64,000 nt of DNA, from the NCBI RefSeq assembly GCF_900099915.1, contig NZ_FNDB01000005.1, positions 186,001 to 250,000 of the forward strand. Direction: 5' to 3'. A program made the position numbers and the translations under genes. This DNA comes from Flavobacterium omnivorum (GTDB lineage: Bacteria > Bacteroidota > Bacteroidia > Flavobacteriales > Flavobacteriaceae). Below, one piece after another: positions 16,973 through 56,426 of this stretch. Within the stretch, counting starts at the first letter, position 1; each line of letters opens with the position of its first letter. The notes below the pieces were generated by a model. The model did no database searches, was not told where the DNA came from, and saw only the letters and a list, made by a program, of their open reading frames with translations.

Positions 16973-17035
16973 AAAAAATACAATTCAAAAGAATAATCTG
17001 TACCTTTCAAGTACGAAAATTAACAACATTACAAA

Positions 17036-17833
17036 ATGTCACAAGATACTAAGGAATTAAAATTGGCTGTTCTCATTGATGCTGATAATGTTCCATACAG
17101 CAATGTAAAAGGAATGATGGAAGAAATTGCTAAATTTGGTACGCCAACCACCAAACGCATTTACGCCGATTGGACTAAACCAAATGCTGGCGGCTGGAAA
17201 AGTGTTTTATTAGAACATGCCATTACACCTATTCAACAATACAGCTACACCGTGGGTAAAAATTCGTCGGATTCAGCGATGATTATTGACGCTATGGATT
17301 TGTTATATTCGGATAAAGTCGATGGTTTTTGTATTGTTTCTAGCGATTCTGATTTTACGCGTCTAGCCATTCGTTTGAGAGAATCTGGAATGAAAGTTAT
17401 TGGAATTGGAGAGAAAAAAACACCCAATTCTTTTATTGTTGCTTGTGACCGATTTATTTATATCGAGGTTTTAGATGGCGCTATCCAGAAAAAAGCTAAA
17501 AAACGTTCCGCAGATACTATAAAACCTGCTGGAAAACCTGCTGGAAAAACAGTTGAAAAACCGATAGAGAAATCATTGAGCAAAATCGACACAGAAACCA
17601 TTGAATTGATTGAAACCACCATAGAAGATATTTGCGATGATGATGGATGGGCATTTCTAGGTGATGTGGGAAACCTAATCGTAAAAAGAAAACCGGAATT
17701 TGATCCTAGAAATTATGGTTTTGTAAAATTAACTCCTATGCTAAAATCATTAACTGATATCTTGGAAATAGACGAACGAGAATCTGAAAAAAAAGGAATC
17801 AAACATGTATATGTACGATTGCGTTTCAGCTAA
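17036..17833 (+). CDS. NYN-domain putative RNase with C-terminal OST-HTH/LOTUS domain
   Basis: A cytoplasmic protein of 265 residues. The N-terminal 145 residues are a PIN-like NYN domain. Acidic metal-site residues are visible in VLIDADNVPY, NSSDSAMIIDAMDLLY and CIVSSDSDFTRLAIRLRESG. A lysine-rich linker (residues about 150-180) leads to a C-terminal winged helix (about 185-265) of the OST-HTH/LOTUS type that binds RNA. The pair is known in putative bacterial RNA-processing nucleases. The stop overlaps the convergent histidine kinase gene by 4 bp. RNA target unknown. Confidence 0.85.
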   Translation: MSQDTKELKLAVLIDADNVPYSNVKGMMEEIAKFGTPTTKRIYADWTKPNAGGWKSVLLEHAITPIQQYSYTVGKNSSDSAMIIDAMDLLYSDKVDGFCIVSSDSDFTRLAIRLRESGMKVIGIGEKKTPNSFIVACDRFIYIEVLDGAIQKKAKKRSADTIKPAGKPAGKTVEKPIEKSLSKIDTETIELIETTIEDICDDDGWAFLGDVGNLIVKRKPEFDPRNYGFVKLTPMLKSLTDILEIDERESEKKGIKHVYVRLRFS

Positions 17834-20211
17834 ACTAATTTTTTTACTGTTTCATATAAGGTTTCTTTCTTTATAGGTTTGGATAAATAATGATTCATCC
17901 CAATGTCCTTAACCCGCTGCTTTGTGGTTTCCATCACATCAGCGGTTATGGCAATAATAGGTATATTTACATTCTCTGCTCCTGCTTCTCCATTTCTAAT
18001 TGCAATTGTCGCTTCGTATCCATCCATAACTGGCATTTGAAGATCCATTAAGACAATATCAAATTGATTTATTTTGAATGCCTCGAGTGCTTCTTGTCCA
18101 TTATTGACATAAATAACGGTGGTGTTCAACCATTTTTTAGTTATCATTTTAACAACCATTTGATTAATGGGGTTGTCTTCCACTACCAAAATAGTTTTAC
18201 CGCCTAAATCGCAAACTACGGGCTCAATTCCTGTTACTTCCTTTTTTTCCTGTATTATTACATCAAAATCTAATTCAATTATGCACGTTGTTCCTTGGTT
18301 GACTGTACTATTCATTTCGATAGTTCCATTTTGCATATTGACCAATGTTTTCACGATATAAAGACCCAATCCAAGTCCACCAAATTGGCGCTTATCATTA
18401 CTATTATTTTGAAAAAAAGAAGCAAAAATACGGTCCATTTTTTCTTTTGGAACTCCTACACCTGAATCAGAAATAGTCAAAATTAAACGAGCTCTATTGT
18501 TCGCTTTCAGTTCACTATCAATAATAAATTTAATAAAACCTGTGGATGTAAATTTTAAAGCATTATTTAGAACATTATTAACAATCTGTTGTAAACGAGT
18601 TTGATCCCCAAATAATAAATGAGGAACAATTCTTGAGGCAGAAAATTCAAACTGCAATCCTTTTTCTATGGCAATTCGATTGGCATTATCTTTTAAATGC
18701 TGCAAAACCTGCAAGGGATCAAATTGATTCATTTCCAACTTCAATTCCCCTTTTTCAATTTTAGAAAAATCTAAAATATCATTAACAGAACTTAATAAAC
18801 TATGAGATGAATATTTTATGACCTGACAGTTTTGTTTAATTTTATCATCCTGAACTTCACTAGAAATGGAATCAATCAAGTTTACAATAGCATTCAATGG
18901 CGTTCGCAATTCATGACTGATGTTGGACAAGAAGTAAGACTTCAAATCGTTCATTTCTTCAGAACGGATCAAGGCTATCCGATTGAGTTCATTTTTTTCG
19001 TTTTTCAAATTTCTAATTAATTTGGACATCGAAAGGGATAGGAAAATAACCTCTAAACCGGTTCCCAATTTCGAACTGTTTTGAGTAAAAAAGGTATTCG
19101 GTAATAATCCGAAATTGTACAAAATAAAGATGCCAAAACCTGTGATTAAAAATAAAATACCAGCAGTAAAGAAGGCATCTACGGGCTTCCTTTTATAATA
19201 GAGATAGGCTATCGAATAAACAATTAAGATTAGAAATACGAGTGTAAGCACATTAACCAAAATGTAAGAAAACAACAAAATGGACGGGATAAAAATAACG
19301 CAGAACAATAAGGAAAACAACAAACCATAGGCAACATTAAAAAGAATGTAGATTTTTCGACTATTACTTTTAATTTTCAAAAATAACTCACTGTATTTAC
19401 CCGATAGAAAAACCGCAATAATCGCTATAAACAATAAGGCATGATTAGAAAACCAACCTGCATTTGGCGTAACGAATTTAAAGAAAAATCCATCTAAAGC
19501 AAATTGTAACAAACCCACAAAAAAAACATACAAACTATAGTATAAAAAGATCTTATCGCTCAAAGCAAAAAAGAAGAAGAAATAGATTATCGCAACAATG
19601 ACTAAAATTCCATAAAACATACCAAAGAATAATTGTTCATTTGATATCATTGTCATAAAACTTTCTGCTGAATACAGCATGACTGGAATTTTAATAGCTT
19701 CACCATCACTCTTTAAATGCAAATACAACTGCTGAGTCGATCTTGGCGCAAGGTCTATTTTGAAAATAGCTTTACGGTTCTCAAAACTTCGTTCCGAATA
19801 CGGAATGGCATCACCACTTACTAATTTTGTAATTTTCCCATTAATACTATCTACGCTATATAATTCGACTAAATCAGTAATAGGTCTGGCCGTTTCTAAG
19901 TAGTAATTCAAGCTAGAATTAGTCGGGTTTTTTAGTACTGTTTTTGACCAGAAATTATTTTGAGTAAAACCTAAATCGTCATTTTCAGTTTCTAATTGTA
20001 GTGGTTTCAAAGCATCAAAATTAGCCATAACAAATTTCACATCTAAATTTCTTTGACCTACATCAGCAATCGTGGTGTATTTGTGTAAAGAAATTTTTTG
20101 AGGAATTGCATCTCTTGGGAAGACATACTGTGCATACGTATTAGAAAAAAACAAGACGAAAAATAAAAATTTTGAAACAGCAAGTGGCTGTTTATCTATT
20201 TTTAGACTCAT
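17830..20211 (-). CDS. Hybrid sensor histidine kinase (7TMR-DISM, HisKA, HATPase, REC)
   Basis: The 793-residue product begins MSLKIDKQPLAVSKFLFFVLFFSNTYAQ (signal peptide). It has a periplasmic 7TMR-DISM extracellular domain, seven hydrophobic helices, then a HisKA domain with FLSNISHELRTP (His433). The HATPase domain has DSGVGVPKEK and GGLGLGLYIVK. The C-terminal receiver has VLMDLQMP (Asp723) and a conserved SKPI lysine. It is probably a sensor of carbohydrate-type or envelope signals passing phosphate to an HPt partner not seen here. The ATG at 20211 was preferred over the upstream frame to 20271, which reads through a leader hairpin. Confidence 0.9.
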   Translation of the reverse strand: MSLKIDKQPLAVSKFLFFVLFFSNTYAQYVFPRDAIPQKISLHKYTTIADVGQRNLDVKFVMANFDALKPLQLETENDDLGFTQNNFWSKTVLKNPTNSSLNYYLETARPITDLVELYSVDSINGKITKLVSGDAIPYSERSFENRKAIFKIDLAPRSTQQLYLHLKSDGEAIKIPVMLYSAESFMTMISNEQLFFGMFYGILVIVAIIYFFFFFALSDKIFLYYSLYVFFVGLLQFALDGFFFKFVTPNAGWFSNHALLFIAIIAVFLSGKYSELFLKIKSNSRKIYILFNVAYGLLFSLLFCVIFIPSILLFSYILVNVLTLVFLILIVYSIAYLYYKRKPVDAFFTAGILFLITGFGIFILYNFGLLPNTFFTQNSSKLGTGLEVIFLSLSMSKLIRNLKNEKNELNRIALIRSEEMNDLKSYFLSNISHELRTPLNAIVNLIDSISSEVQDDKIKQNCQVIKYSSHSLLSSVNDILDFSKIEKGELKLEMNQFDPLQVLQHLKDNANRIAIEKGLQFEFSASRIVPHLLFGDQTRLQQIVNNVLNNALKFTSTGFIKFIIDSELKANNRARLILTISDSGVGVPKEKMDRIFASFFQNNSNDKRQFGGLGLGLYIVKTLVNMQNGTIEMNSTVNQGTTCIIELDFDVIIQEKKEVTGIEPVVCDLGGKTILVVEDNPINQMVVKMITKKWLNTTVIYVNNGQEALEAFKINQFDIVLMDLQMPVMDGYEATIAIRNGEAGAENVNIPIIAITADVMETTKQRVKDIGMNHYLSKPIKKETLYETVKKLV

Positions 20212-20251
20212 AGTTTGTGAATTGTTATTAATTAAAAACAGATACGTTAAA

Positions 20252-20282
20252 AAGGACCTTCTGGTTTTCAAACCACGTCCTT
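20252..20282 (-). promoter_or_regulatory. Leader hairpin with T-run upstream of the hybrid kinase (possible attenuator)
   Basis: On the minus strand AAGGAC-G-TGGTTT-GA-AAACCA-GAAG-GTCCTT is followed by TTT. This is a two-part stem with a small loop, about 40 nt before the ATG at 20211. It has the form of an intrinsic terminator located in the leader. No plausible gene end lies on this strand just upstream, so it is either an attenuator or the end of an unseen small transcript. Confidence 0.5.
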
Positions 20283-20476
20283 AATCAGGAACGCGAATGC
20301 GAATTAAAAAAATCCTCTATAATTAAAAGCTTTAAAAGTAAGAAATATTTAACGTTCTTAGTATTTTAGGGGCTTAAACAAATCTGAGAATGAGACAAAA
20401 GTTGTTCATTTAAGTACTATCCGCATTAATTTGAAACGGTATTATTTATTTTTATTTCAATATAGGCCTGCTATTT

Positions 20477-21894
20477 ATGATTCTCTTGACCATTATATTA
20501 TTAATTGGTTTGGCTAACAGCATCCAACACAAACATGCTATTTTAAGAAATTTTCCGGTTTTGGGTTATTTCAGATATTTATTCAAAATGATAGCTCCAG
20601 AAATACAACAATATTTTATAGAACGTTCCACTGATGGAAAACCTTTTTCAAGAAATGAGCGTTCCCTCATATATCAGAGAGCCAAAAATATCGATTCTAC
20701 TACTCCTTTTGGAACACAACTCAATTTAAACGATACCCATTATGAAGGCATTAAACATTCCATTTTTCCTCCGGTTGTCAATGAGGAACTTCTTCGAATA
20801 ACAATTGGAGGAAAAAACTGTTTACAGCCTTATTCAGCTTCTTTATTGAATATTTCTGCAATGAGTTTTGGTTCTTTGAGTGAGAATGCTATCATGGCTC
20901 TAAATAAAGGAGCATTAAAAGGAAACTTCTATCACAATACAGGTGAAGGCGGCTTAACCGAATTCCATCAGCAAGGAGGTGATGTTACTTGGCAAATAGG
21001 AACGGGTTATTTTGGTTGTCGCGATGATAGAGGTGGATTTGACGGTGTAAATTTGCTAAAAAAGCAAATTTACCAGAAGTAAAGATGATTGAGATTAAAT
21101 TATCACAAGGAGCTAAACCAGGCCATGGAGGAGTTTTACCGGCAGCAAAAAACACGGTACAAATTGCTAAAATAAGAGGTATTTCACTAGATACAACGAT
21201 TCTTTCACCACACAATCATTCTGCTTTTGAAGATTTTAAAGGTTTGATTGCTTTCATATCAAAATTACGAGCACTTTCAAATGGAAAACTAATAGGCTTG
21301 AAACTTTGCATCGGGGACACTACAGAATTTGAGATGATTTGCCAAGAAATGATTAATCAAAACTGCTTCCCCGATTTTATCACTGTTGACAGTGCCGAAG
21401 GTGGAACGGGAGCTGCACCATTAGAATTTGCAGATTGTGCGGGAATGCCATTTGAACCTGCACTTATATTTGTCAATAAAACTTTAGTAAGTTTTGAAAT
21501 TAGAAACAGCATACGTATTATTTGCAGTGGGAAAATGATATCGGGCTATTCAATATTGAGCGCAGTTGCACTTGGTGCACATATTTGCAATAGCGCTCGA
21601 AGCTTTATGTTTTCAATAGGCTGTATTCAAGCATTACGTTGCAATACCAATACATTCCCTGCAGGAGTGGCTACACAAGACAAAATTTTAATAAAAGGAT
21701 TAGTTGTAACAGACAAATCAGAACGTGTTTTTCATTTTCATAAAAACACATTGCATTCGGCAAATGAACTACTCGCTGCCGCAGGAAAAAAAGCTACAAA
21801 GATAGATATAAACATTTTCATGCGTGGTGATGAATTTGCTCATTTAACCGATTTGTACTTTCCCGATAATTTAAAAAGCGTAATCAGAAATTAA
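20477..21894 (+). pseudogene. FMN-binding glutamate-synthase-like protein, split by a -1 frameshift
   Basis: Two reading frames (20477-21082 and 21085-21894) together encode one membrane-anchored protein of the glutamate synthase alpha-subunit-like family. The first has an N-terminal helix, NFPVLGYFRYLFKM and the FMN-site segment MSFGSLSENAIMALNKGA. The second has KLSQGAKPGHGGVLP, VDSAEGGTGAAPLEF and the C-terminal CNTNTFPAGVATQ. The shift lies at 21047-21064. Homologues read about NFAKKANLPEVKMIEIK here, so one base is missing in the short T run at 21052-21054. The zero frame also contains A-AAA-AAG (21058-21064), a classical -1 slippery heptamer that would restore the frame. It is either a pseudogene, a sequencing error or, less likely, recoded. 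Confidence 0.85.
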
Positions 21895-21912
21895 AATTGA
21901 AAATTATACCAA

Positions 21913-22052
21913 TAAAAAGGAGGACCTTTTGAGTCCTCCAGTTGTTGATTTTGATTTACCATTATCAACTCATACTGTATATCGTATAGCTGATTATTGA
22001 ATTGTCAATAATCTTCTGGTGAAGATAAACACTCAAGTAATTAATCAAAACC
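21913..22052 (-). ncRNA. Small RNA copy 1 of a five-copy tandem family
   Basis: Transcription should start near 22052, just after TATCTTTG at 22058-22065, and end in the terminator GGAGGAC/GTCCTCC (21919-21939) with a T-run. The 5' segment GGTTTTGATT pairs with 3' AATCAAAATC to close the molecule. A perfect internal 9-bp hairpin GATTATTGA/TCAATAATC and a 6-bp hairpin ATCTTC/GAAGAT lie inside. No reading frame is shared by the copies. The ends are predicted, not measured. Confidence 0.8.
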
Positions 22053-22057
22053 ACACT

Positions 22058-22118
22058 CAAAGATACCATTTACTTTCAGTAAAAAAGACATCAATCATGG
22101 TCTTAACTAATCATTAAC
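22058..22118 (-). promoter_or_regulatory. Promoter and upstream element of sRNA copy 1
   Basis: Minus-strand -7 box TATCTTTG at 22058-22065. Two TTAAC half-sites (plus strand 22103-22107 and 22114-22118) sit 11 bp apart and start exactly 38 bp from the -7 box. No TTG lies at the usual -33 distance. Confidence 0.7.
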
Positions 22119-22222
22119 TATCTGAATATAAACCATTAAAACAGCATTATTCATTAGCCTCTTTTTTGAAAAATATGTTTTAAAATGAATTGACAAATAA
22201 ATATTAATTTTCAGTGAAGACA

Positions 22223-22356
22223 TAAAAAAGGAGGTCTTTTTACAGACCTCCAATTCAGATTTTGATTTGTTATTATCAGCTTATATCTTTCGATACAACT
22301 AACTCTTAGATATGCTACTCTTTGCAGATGGCCGTATTCAAGAACAAAGCGAAATC
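22223..22356 (-). ncRNA. Small RNA copy 2 of a five-copy tandem family
   Basis: Nearly the same sequence as copy 4. Starts near 22356 and ends in GGAGGTCT/AGACCTCC (22230-22251) plus T6. The closing helix pairs GATTTCGCTTTGTT at the 5' side with AACAAATCAAAATC at the 3' side (12 of 14 positions). Inside is a GAAA tetraloop hairpin GTATC-GAAA-GATAT (22283-22296). It has the shared block CATCTGCAAAGAGTAGC, found also in copy 4 and, with one change, in copy 5. Confidence 0.85.
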
Positions 22357-22361
22357 ATACT

Positions 22362-22422
22362 CAAAGATACCGCAAATTTCATTTTAAACAATTTTAAAAA
22401 AGCACTTTAACTAATTATTAAC
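22362..22422 (-). promoter_or_regulatory. Promoter and upstream element of sRNA copy 2
   Basis: TATCTTTG at 22362-22369 with TTG at 22389-22391 on the minus strand, spacer 19 bp: a full Bacteroidota consensus promoter. TTAAC half-sites at 22407-22411 and 22418-22422 begin 38 bp from the -7 box. Confidence 0.85.
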
Positions 22423-22479
22423 TATATGATATTCAATATATTAATTAAGAACGGTAAAATACATTTTAACATAAGCCAC

Positions 22480-22616
22480 AAAAAAGGAGGCCTTTTTAAA
22501 GGGCCTCCTATGTGATTCTGAATTACCGATATTAACTCTTACCGTTGCTGGTATAGTCTATTGTGAGTTATCAATCTCATTATAAGATTGACATTCCCAA
22601 GTATTCAATCAGAATC
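22480..22616 (-). ncRNA. Small RNA copy 3 of a five-copy tandem family
   Basis: The most divergent copy. Starts near 22616 and ends in GGAGGCC/GGCCTCC (22486-22508) plus a T-run. Its closing helix GTGATTCTGA/TCAGAATCAC keeps full pairing although both strands differ from the other copies (T to C opposite A to G). An internal perfect 7-bp hairpin TCAATCT/AGATTGA is present. Conserved structure with changed sequence is the main evidence for a functional RNA. Confidence 0.8.
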
Positions 22617-22621
22617 ACTCC

Positions 22622-22682
22622 CAAAGATATAATTTGTTTCTACAACAATCAACTGTTAATCAGCATTTAACCAATATTTAAC
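22622..22682 (-). promoter_or_regulatory. Promoter and upstream element of sRNA copy 3
   Basis: TATCTTTG at 22622-22629, with a TTG at 22650-22652 giving a 20-bp spacer. TTAAC half-sites at 22667-22671 and 22678-22682, again 38 bp from the -7 box and 11 bp apart. Confidence 0.8.
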
Positions 22683-22827
22683 GCAATTAATTTGTGGTCT
22701 ACAAATTGTCTTCAATTACACATTATACCGTTAAATTAGTTTAGGAAATTTTAATAAAAAATTAATTCAACAAAAATTGGATCAAAAAAATAGACCAGGT
22801 CAAAAATCCTATTTTGGCATAAGGCCA

Positions 22828-22962
22828 TAAAAAAAGGAGGTCTTGTTACAGACCTCCAATTCAGATTTTGATTTGTTATTATCAGATTACATCTTTCGAT
22901 GCACCTAACTATCAAATACGCTACTCTTTGCAGATGGCCATATTCAAGAACAAAGCAAAATC
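22828..22962 (-). ncRNA. Small RNA copy 4 of a five-copy tandem family
   Basis: Sister of copy 2, with about ten substitutions. Starts near 22962 and ends in GGAGGTCT/AGACCTCC (22836-22857) plus T7. The closing helix is GATTTTGCTTTGTT with AACAAATCAAAATC (13 of 14). The tetraloop hairpin is TGCATC-GAAA-GATGTA (22888-22903); relative to copy 2 an A-U pair has become G-C, a compensatory double change. Confidence 0.85.
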
Positions 22963-22967
22963 ATACT

Positions 22968-23028
22968 CAAAGATAAGGCATATTATAATTTAAAATACTC
23001 AAAAAAAGCACTTTAACTAATTATTAAC
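22968..23028 (-). promoter_or_regulatory. Promoter and upstream element of sRNA copy 4
   Basis: TATCTTTG at 22968-22975. The nearest TTG gives a 24-bp spacer, slightly long. TTAAC half-sites at 23013-23017 and 23024-23028 keep the 38-bp and 11-bp spacings. Confidence 0.75.
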
Positions 23029-23089
23029 TTAATGATTTTAAGCATTTTAAGCCCGAATCAATAAAAGCAATGAACGACTGCATCAATAA

Positions 23090-23230
23090 TAAAAAAAGGA
23101 GGCCTTTTGAAGGGCCTCCGATTGTAGATTTTGATTTACCATTTATCAACTCATACCTTTCAGTATGAAATGACTATTTGAATAAGCTTCTCTTTGCAGA
23201 TGGTTTTACTCAAGTGATTAATCAAAACCA
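23090..23230 (-). ncRNA. Small RNA copy 5 of a five-copy tandem family
   Basis: Starts near 23230 and ends in GGAGGCC/GGCCTCC (23098-23119) plus T7. The 5' end GGTTTTGATTAATCACTTGA resembles copy 1, while the middle carries CCATCTGCAAAGAGAAGC like copies 2 and 4. The copy therefore looks like a mosaic. The closing helix is GGTTTTGATT/AATCAAAATC; an internal hairpin TCATAC/GTATGA is present. Confidence 0.8.
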
Positions 23231-23235
23231 CATAT

Positions 23236-23296
23236 CAAAGATACAACTTATGTTAGTTAAAAAAATTAAAAATAAAGATTTTAACTATTCATTAAA
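23236..23296 (-). promoter_or_regulatory. Promoter and upstream element of sRNA copy 5
   Basis: TATCTTTG at 23236-23243. Upstream half-sites TTAAC (23281-23285) and degenerate TTAAA (23292-23296) have the same 38-bp and 11-bp spacing. No clear -33 TTG. This is the outermost copy. Confidence 0.65.
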
Positions 23297-23395
23297 ATAC
23301 TAATTTACAATTAGTTACAAATGATTTCTGTTAAAACAAAAGCAGCAGATTATAATACTGAAAAAGTGCCTCGGCAATGGTATTGATGACATATA

Positions 23396-23424
23396 TTGTA
23401 GAATATTTAAAAAATGTATCTTTG
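23396..23424 (+). promoter_or_regulatory. rdgB promoter
   Basis: TTG (23396-23398), 18-bp spacer and TATCTTTG (23417-23424): a full consensus. It lies 24 nt before the ATG at 23449 and excludes the upstream in-frame ATG at 23377 as the normal start. Confidence 0.75.
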
Positions 23425-23448
23425 GAGAATCAAATTAAATCAAAAAAA

Positions 23449-24027
23449 ATGCAACTCGTTTTCGCTTCTAATAACAAAAACAAAATCCTAGAATTACAAA
23501 GCATGCTTCCTGATACAATACTTATATTGAGTCTTGAAAGTATTAGATGCTTTGAAGACATTCCAGAAACAGCTGGAACTATTGAAGGGAATGCAATTCA
23601 AAAAGCAAATTATGTGACTGAAAAATTTGGCTACAATTGCTTTGCCGATGATACTGGACTAGAAGTAGACGCTTTGAATGGTGATCCTGGCGTTTACTCC
23701 GCTCGCTATGCGGGGGAACAGCGCAACGCAGATGATAATATGAATAAATTATTGGCTATGCTTGGCAGCAAAAATAACAGAGCTGCACAGTTTAAAACCG
23801 TTATGGCATTAAATCTAAATGGCAACCAGCATCTTTTTACTGGAATAGCACGAGGATTGATCACTTCAAAAAAAATTGGAGATCAGGGTTTTGGATACGA
23901 TCCCATTTTTCAGCCAGACGGATATGACGAAACATTCGCCCAATTATCATTAGAGATAAAAAATAAAATCAGTCATAGGGGAAAGGCAACTAAAAAACTA
24001 ATTGATTTTTTGAAAACATCCGAATAG
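23449..24027 (+). CDS. rdgB: XTP/dITP diphosphatase (RdgB/HAM1)
   Basis: A 192-residue house-cleaning pyrophosphatase that hydrolyses dITP, XTP and related non-canonical purine nucleotides to monophosphates. It starts MQLVFASNNKNK, the substrate loop SNNxxK. It carries FADDTGLEVDALNGDPGVYSARYAG with the metal-binding acidic residues, GYDPIFQPDG, and the C-terminal SHRGKA. Length is usual (about 190-200). The consensus promoter immediately upstream fixes the start. It is monocistronic, between the sRNA cluster and the helicase gene. Confidence 0.95.
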   Translation: MQLVFASNNKNKILELQSMLPDTILILSLESIRCFEDIPETAGTIEGNAIQKANYVTEKFGYNCFADDTGLEVDALNGDPGVYSARYAGEQRNADDNMNKLLAMLGSKNNRAAQFKTVMALNLNGNQHLFTGIARGLITSKKIGDQGFGYDPIFQPDGYDETFAQLSLEIKNKISHRGKATKKLIDFLKTSE

Positions 24028-49623: not shown

Positions 49624-49860
49624 TTTACGTTAATTATTATTATTGTTCCTTCAACGATTTCGAGTTTAATTATGTCTACTCTATATTAGTGATATTAACC
49701 TTCAACTATACACCCAATAAAAGCTAGATTGCCGAAGTTTTATTTCGCTTTATTCATTTTCAAATATATTAAAATTTTCTTACAAATAAAGACGCATTTC
49801 TTTTTTTGAATGTTTTTCGCACTGCTTCAGTTCTACAAACCTCCTTAATTCCACAAAATC
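49624..49860. other. Gene-free stretch upstream of the DUF262-HNH gene
   Basis: AT-rich, no supported frame and no clear TAnnTTTG box for the DUF262-HNH gene. It separates the accessory patch from the repeat element at 49861. Confidence 0.4.
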
Positions 49861-49946
49861 CTAGCCCAGATGGAAGTGAAAATCCTTTTTATGCGCCTTT
49901 TCGGCGGATAAAAAGATTGCAACGAACAGCTGGAAATAGCTCCTAA
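49861..49946 (+). repeat. Conserved-ends/variable-hairpin element, copy A
   Basis: Begins CTAGCCCAGATGGAAGTGAA and ends AACAGCTGGAAATAGCTCCTAA. The same ends recur in inverted orientation at 56161-56308. The core is a hairpin AATC(C)TTTTTAT...ATAAAAA-GATT with inner CGCC/GGCG. The outer CTAGCCCAG can pair with CTGGAAATAG, so the unit can fold as one long structure. It lies upstream of the trmD promoter. Confidence 0.7.
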
Positions 49947-56160: not shown

Positions 56161-56308
56161 TTAGGAGCTAATCCAGCTGTTCATTACAACCAAAAACAGG
56201 TTCTAAACAGTTTTCCAGTCTGTATAAGGAGCTTCCATTGGTCGCTCTTCTACAGCCAGAAAACTAAAGTTTACAACCTGTTTTGGTTTTCATTGCCATC
56301 TGGGCTAG
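56161..56308 (-). repeat. Conserved-ends/variable-hairpin element, copy B
   Basis: On the minus strand it begins CTAGCCCAGATGGCAATGAA and ends AACAGCTGGATTAGCTCCTAA, nearly the same as copy A. The core is a much longer imperfect hairpin: ACCAAAACAGGTT pairs with AACCTGTTTTTGGT, then AGTTTTC with GAAAACT, GCTGTA with TACAG, and AGAGC with GCTC at the tip. It starts immediately after the stop of the DUF4249 gene. Confidence 0.75.
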
Positions 56309-56426
56309 AGTATAGTTGATTTTTCAAGTTTGCATATTTTAACTAACTTTACAGTCTACGATCCAATCTATTATCGATTGCCAAAATCTAAAATCTTAAA
56401 TCACATTTCTTAAATCTACAATCCTC

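Follow-up and report, generated by a model that had tools for sequence, protein, structure and literature searches.

A tandem array of five predicted small RNA genes in Flavobacterium omnivorum, and the structured RNA family of the genus to which they appear to belong

The stretch of Flavobacterium omnivorum DNA analyzed here (64,000 nucleotides; contig NZ_FNDB01000005.1, positions 186,001 to 250,000; hereafter the window) carries five units on its minus strand at 21.9-23.3 kb, in the space between a glutamate-synthase-like gene and the housekeeping gene rdgB. The former gene (20435-21891, plus strand) is split between two frames, both with PF01645 matches, and the latter (23449..24027, plus strand) encodes a Ham1-like NTP pyrophosphatase (Ham1p_like, E=6e-64), whose start we put at the conserved MQLVFASNN and which has a -7 box of its own at 23417-23424 (plus strand). 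The glutamate-synthase-like gene is convergent with the array and rdgB divergent from it, so that no same-strand gene follows the array in the window, and this layout recurs in other genomes. On the far side of the glutamate-synthase-like gene lie the genes for a 7TMR-DISM hybrid histidine kinase with a receiver domain (17830-20271, minus strand) and for a protein with NYN and OST-HTH/LOTUS domains (17024-17830, plus strand). The original prediction, made from the letters of this DNA, saw no coding frame in the 1.4-kb gap, and we agree: the largest frames there measure 41-54 aa, and none of them is conserved. A conserved small ORF was likewise not found in our compiled set of 83 unit sequences (one unit is counted twice in it), as no ATG follows the start in 10 of these rows and frame lengths vary; a small-ORF coding reading was rejected on these grounds.

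Every unit has the same -7 box, TATCTTTG, followed by a transcribed region that ends in a G-rich stem and a T-run. Successive copies of TATCTTTG in the array are 304, 260, 346, and 268 bp apart; in the window as a whole, there are 15 copies, against 4.7 expected. All coordinates that follow refer to the minus strand, the boxes being sequence matches and the transcripts predictions. Unit 1 has a direct-repeat box, GTTAATGATTAGTTAA, at 22103..22118, its -7 box at 22058..22065, and a transcript at 21914..22053 with a three-way junction and a terminator stem (21939-21919) plus T-run; its +1 was derived from the placement of TAnnTTTG at -12..-5 in F. psychrophilum (PMC9723704). Unit 2 follows with the direct-repeat box GTTAATAATTAGTTAA (22407..22422), the -7 box at 22362..22369, and a transcript at 22224..22357 (terminator stem 22251-22230). 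In unit 3, the direct-repeat box reads GTTAAATATTGGTTAA (22667..22682), the -7 box lies at 22622..22629, and the transcript spans 22480..22617, with its terminator stem at about 22509-22486. Unit 4 again possesses GTTAATAATTAGTTAA (23013..23028), together with a -7 box at 22968..22975 and a transcript at 22829..22963 (terminator stem 22857-22836). Unit 5, finally, comprises the direct-repeat box TTTAATGAATAGTTAA (23281..23296), in which the first half-site is degenerate, the -7 box at 23236..23243, and a transcript at 23091..23231 (terminator stem 23119-23098).

A terminator scan returned five sites where 0.4 were expected; four of these are the minus-strand terminators of units, and the remaining site is one of the four read in reverse. 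Unit 3 has a terminator with a 9-nt loop, which is just beyond the limit of the scan, but it is plain in sequence and fold. A repeat scan gave 87% identity between units 2 and 4 over 221 nt; the 5' ends of units 1 and 5 agree at 24 of 25 nt, these two units have 3' sequences in common as well, and unit 3 is divergent. Collectively, these data bear out the layout originally predicted, namely five minus-strand units at spacings of 260-346 bp, each with a -7 box and a G-rich stem with T-run, and with just these relations between the copies. The short, separate transcripts that were part of the same prediction would be nearer to 135-140 nt than to 130 nt in length. The genome thus contains five homologous short non-coding RNA genes (81-107 bits), at least two being what defines a multicopy sRNA, and each copy has, judged by its sequence only, its own promoter and terminator.

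The direct-repeat box has the form GTTAA-N6-GTTAA with an 11-bp period and, in every unit, begins exactly 53 nt upstream of the -7 box; in unit 5, its first half is TTTAA instead of GTTAA. On its own, the box occurs at chance level when one mismatch is allowed (seven occurrences in the window vs. 5.8 expected), and its significance stems from the fixed spacing to the -7 box: the two elements at this spacing have four exact matches in the 3.8-Mb genome, all of them in the array, and the control gave 0. In the window and in about 160 kb from 14 loci, the box-to-promoter pattern matched solely at units, and a looser version of it yielded two apparent false matches in 20 further loci (L077 at 1835 and L081 at 7822). 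No exact match to the pattern was present in 2.9 million viral contigs. Nearly every matched unit carries both box and terminator. The box in its tested form occurs in 66 of the 83 compiled rows, in 64 of which it lies 51-54 nt before the -7 box, and a T-run is found in 82; as both the GTTAA box and the terminator lie outside the covariance models described below, they validate the matches independently. The two most divergent sub-families have one half-site at most. Divergent sub-families located near rmuC (L088, L090, L171, and L166-L170) carry a single GTTAA half-site, and the unit bodies of L166-L170 are nearly identical across five species.

A consistent -33 TTG is found at none of the five unit promoters, and this property, in combination with the upstream box, suggests that the promoters depend on an activator. 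Response regulators of the OmpR/PhoB type, which are winged-helix proteins, typically have direct repeats with an 11-bp period as their sites, and the binding site of CiaR is a direct repeat of similar period. From the period of the repeat, an OmpR/PhoB-type response regulator would be the likeliest activator.

Ahead of its terminator, each RNA is predicted to form a three-way junction that is closed by a stem between its 5' and 3' ends (P1, in which GATTTTGATT pairs with AATCAAAATC) and that bears the arms P2 and P3. All five units have this architecture in common despite their large sequence differences, and RNAalifold applied to the five recovers all three helices. The z-scores of the folding MFE amount to -5.3, -4.35, -6.7, -5.2, and -6.1 for units 1-5, and 0 of 200 shuffles were as good. 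In an alignment of 77 distinct sequences, 88.6% of the cells pair and 27 of the 36 pairs show two-sided changes, values that are raised by the fit of this alignment to a model derived partly from the window units. Not one of 500 shuffles reached any of the five covariation measures, and sliding the partners by one column lets the pairing fall to 38-48%. Free RNAalifold on a gappy 30-row alignment recovered P3 only. The excess of G-U cells over A-C cells (442 vs. 59) speaks for the minus strand as the transcribed one, and the model scores are 107-116 bits for the sense but about 16 bits for the antisense orientation. The most conserved unpaired bases are located mainly in the junction, the loops of P2 and P3 vary, and in P1 both the sequence and the pairing are conserved; this distribution fits recognition by a protein or a ligand at least as well as it fits a common seed for mRNAs.

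To build a covariance model from the five copies and to search it across Flavobacteriaceae genomes was a proposal of the original prediction. Our first model (R1), which comprised the -7 box and the RNA body and was built from the five window units only, had matches in 13 of 36 other species of Flavobacterium but no match in 23 genomes of other families. A second model (R2), built from 30 units, found related units in at least 78 of 300 Flavobacterium species, that is, at least a quarter of the genus, with one to seven copies each, the count being a lower bound owing to strict filters; it had no match in any of 300 Flavobacteriaceae genomes of other genera. Twenty species negative with R2 were still negative under looser filters. 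A scan with named species yielded matches in about 60 Flavobacterium stretches, among them stretches of F. fryxellicola, F. caseinilyticum, F. xinjiangense, F. frigoris, F. ranwuense, and F. limicola, and furthermore of F. granuli, F. flevense, and F. suncheonense. The best reading of this distribution is that the family is probably specific to the genus Flavobacterium. Three contigs from metagenome-assembled genomes labelled Klebsiella pneumoniae or Sphingobacterium thalpophilum (L132, L147, and L154) also contain typical Flavobacterium units, and the corresponding bins are, for this reason, probably mislabelled or mixed.

The promoter box, the covarying structure, the terminator, and the spread in the genus strongly support the central claim of the original prediction, and the array should accordingly comprise five paralogous, independently transcribed genes for one structured sRNA family. 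That the units might instead be decaying or mobile repeats devoid of function is hardly tenable: their copy number does vary between one and seven, and there are species in which the array has been lost or copies lie at other sites, but the covariation, the conserved spacing of the box, the terminators, and the orthologous classes considered below show selection, and we saw no mobile gene in the array of the window. Only slightly better is the case for cis elements, i.e., attenuators or riboswitch-like leaders of the neighboring genes. In each unit, a complex fold does lead directly to a terminator, as it does in transcription-attenuating leaders; however, each unit has its own promoter, and the absence of a same-strand gene downstream in the window, in a layout that other genomes repeat, makes this explanation very improbable. 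The riboswitch/attenuator assignment was rejected because of this missing downstream gene.

As to known RNA families, the possible match to the Flavo-1 RNA raised in the original prediction proved wrong. Rfam detected no family at gathering score in the array interval and no Flavo-1 in 21700-23500 even at E values up to 10, and the units of 15 related loci gave neither Flavo-1 nor 6S. No meaningful match to a Bacteroides sRNA model turned up in the array or in these loci, and every other Rfam family was rejected as well. Lacking a match to RF01705, the units were rejected as Flavo-1 RNAs, and no 6S model was among the Rfam matches in the array or the related loci. Flavo-1 resembles the present family in being a small structured RNA that is common in Flavobacteriaceae, but differs from it by its 76-nt model. 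True Flavo-1 RNAs (RF01705) occur elsewhere in the window, at 49859-49940 (plus strand, 75.6 bits) and at 56166-56310 (minus strand, 42.8 bits), as does an L19-Flavobacteria ribosomal protein leader (RF03130; 50840-50867, plus strand, 42.3 bits). Flavo-1 was also seen near units in the relatives L010, L011, L018, and L164.

The neighborhood of the array is partly constant. In most species in which it can be recognized, the array adjoins rdgB and is divergent from it; its other flank varies and holds a glutamate-synthase-like gene, a 7TMR-DISM hybrid kinase (which is beside the array in some species and absent in others), or the NYN-LOTUS protein. Copies at other sites are found in some species, in the vicinity of rmuC or of a maleate-isomerase-like gene; these gene names were assigned by inspection. 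Species free of the array have a short rdgB flank, such as the interval of about 300 bp between the kinase gene and rdgB in G029, so that the loss is a clean one. The glutamate-synthase-like gene forms one frame in F. granuli (L042) and is fragmented in F. ranwuense (L085), F. fryxellicola (L089), and L043; split or fragmented in several species, it is probably decaying. In L185 (G156), the tblastn match to rdgB contains one in-frame TAA.

This neighborhood bears on the serious rival to action by pairing, according to which the RNAs would serve as sponge or scaffold for a protein, like CsrB/RsmZ or 6S RNA, with the conserved junction as the docking site for an RNA-binding protein or an enzyme, and with tandem copies to raise the titrating dose. 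The conserved junction nucleotides and P1 sequence next to variable loops speak for it, as do the amplification with identical copies, the RNA-type NYN-LOTUS protein encoded next to many arrays, and, on the far side of rdgB, a DEAD-box helicase. However, several relatives that lack the array still have the NYN-LOTUS gene close to rdgB, and where the RNA lies at another site, this gene is not close to rdgB. The rdgB-helicase neighborhood, in turn, extends to other genera; hence, the synteny may be mere background. As an obligate partner, the NYN-LOTUS protein was rejected in view of its position near rdgB in array-free species. Moreover, a sponge would have no need of paralogue classes that stay separate over long times and differ in their P2 arms. 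On balance, we consider protein titration rather unlikely, yet worth keeping in mind.

Such classes do exist. In a tree of unit bodies, which relies on few columns and has many weak forks, four classes (A, B, C, and D) recur across species. Class A is rdgB-proximal (unit 5 in the window), class C is rdgB-distal (unit 1), class B comprises units 2 and 4, and class D unites unit 3 with sequences from F. xinjiangense, F. caseinilyticum, and F. ranwuense (support 100/98). Class B has repeatedly been amplified, and both F. fryxellicola and F. caseinilyticum possess identical copies of it. Array length therefore grows by this class, with A, C, and D being kept. The redundancy often ascribed to multicopy sRNAs, which the original prediction had brought up, is only part of the picture. 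It fits class B, whose copies seem to be amplified and redundant; the four classes, however, remain separate from species to species, which points to roles that differ in part.

Our preferred reading, to which we assign a probability of roughly 0.58, is that the array encodes sibling small regulatory RNAs that share an activator at the GTTAA repeat and act in trans on mRNAs, most likely by pairing. In this model, GTTAA-N6-GTTAA would be the candidate site of one shared activator, most likely a response regulator of the OmpR/PhoB type, and the sigma-A -7 box at a fixed distance from it, with no clear -33 TTG, would constitute an activator-dependent promoter. An RNA of about 105 nt would then adopt the three-way junction, with P1 as its closing stem and P2 and P3 as its arms, and the intrinsic terminator would follow. 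A single signal would turn on the whole set, and copy number would thereby set the dose. The sibling RNAs could pair class-specific segments, mainly the P2 arm with its loop and the single strand ahead of the terminator, with target mRNAs in trans, possibly helped by an Hfq-independent chaperone, for instance the single RRM protein of the genome. An Hfq encoded in the genome, by which Hfq-dependent sRNAs would be recognized, was not found: PF17209 had no match there, and the controls E. coli and B. subtilis were positive. The genome encodes one RRM_1 protein of about 120 aa. A target scan with the complement of the class A and class B loops gave, beyond the units themselves, one match with one mismatch, on the antisense strand of a coding gene, and was no better than the control. 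The analysis shows the units, their box, the covarying structure, the distribution, the synteny, and the paralogue classes, whereas transcription, the type of activator, action in trans, the pairing mechanism, and the targets are points that we infer; pairing is our first choice for the mechanism, ahead of protein binding via the conserved junction. A more far-reaching proposal, which we regard as doubtful, envisages a new class of compactly folded bacterial RNA in which the conserved junction recognizes a protein or a ligand, tandem arrays stand under one regulator with array length tuning the dose, and stable sub-classes are specialized via the P2 arm, a class that would be genus-wide and lack a relative among the described RNA families.

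To our knowledge, the sRNA biology of Bacteroidota has been little explored outside Bacteroides. The family described here is well delimited and supported by covariation, comes with a covariance model and a sharp promoter signature, and deserves an Rfam entry. Its natural copy-number variation, from 0 to 7 between close species, makes the question of dose directly testable; so are the questions which regulator reads the GTTAA repeat, and what use a flavobacterium free of Hfq makes of up to seven sibling RNAs.

The one candidate that has been studied by experiment is Rfp18 of F. psychrophilum, a strongly structured sRNA that is conserved in Flavobacterium and also expressed in F. columnare, and whose deletion lowers the mRNA levels of the metalloprotease genes fpp1 and THC0290_0300 (PMC9723704). 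An identity of the two, which would be compatible with our preferred reading and would mean that the function is partly known, is possible, since both are structured and widely conserved in the genus (PMC9723704). We nevertheless view it as tentative: neither F. psychrophilum nor F. columnare is among the named matches, other conserved structured sRNAs of F. psychrophilum have been named (Rfp11, Rfp13, and Rfp15; PMC9723704), and phage 6H DNA pointed to no F. psychrophilum genome in our set, with matches of only about 70-76% in other species. The description of Rfp18 places the pairing site in the third stem-loop and makes no mention of tandem copies. As far as we searched the literature, the family, its fold, its tandem layout, and its promoter signature appear undescribed, Rfp18 having been set beside them by description only.

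Multicopy sibling sRNAs are already known as a kind (PMC4507080; PMC11697453). The Bacteroides sRNA GibS differs from the present family by its near-palindromic PM2 promoter at -10/-30 (PMC7366714), which takes the place of a GTTAA repeat, and PM2 was rejected as an identity for our box, being such a near-palindrome. Closer are the FopS RNAs of Bacteroides thetaiotaomicron, 14 RbpB-associated siblings with sigma-ABfr promoters that work with an RRM protein and independently of Hfq (PMC11697453). They share with our family the multicopy paralogous sRNAs of a Bacteroidota member and the Hfq-free setting with an RRM protein, but they are about 65-70 nt long, scattered, and present in 14 copies. 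The five CiaR-controlled csRNAs of Streptococcus pneumoniae, which are related short sRNAs with own promoters and additive action (PMC4507080), do not form a three-way junction, and it is by description, not by sequence relation, that we liken them to our family. They nevertheless offer the same arrangement of several short sibling sRNAs, each with its own promoter and under one response regulator, in our case a candidate one, and the direct-repeat site at a fixed promoter distance that we found in all five units of F. omnivorum is csRNA-like.
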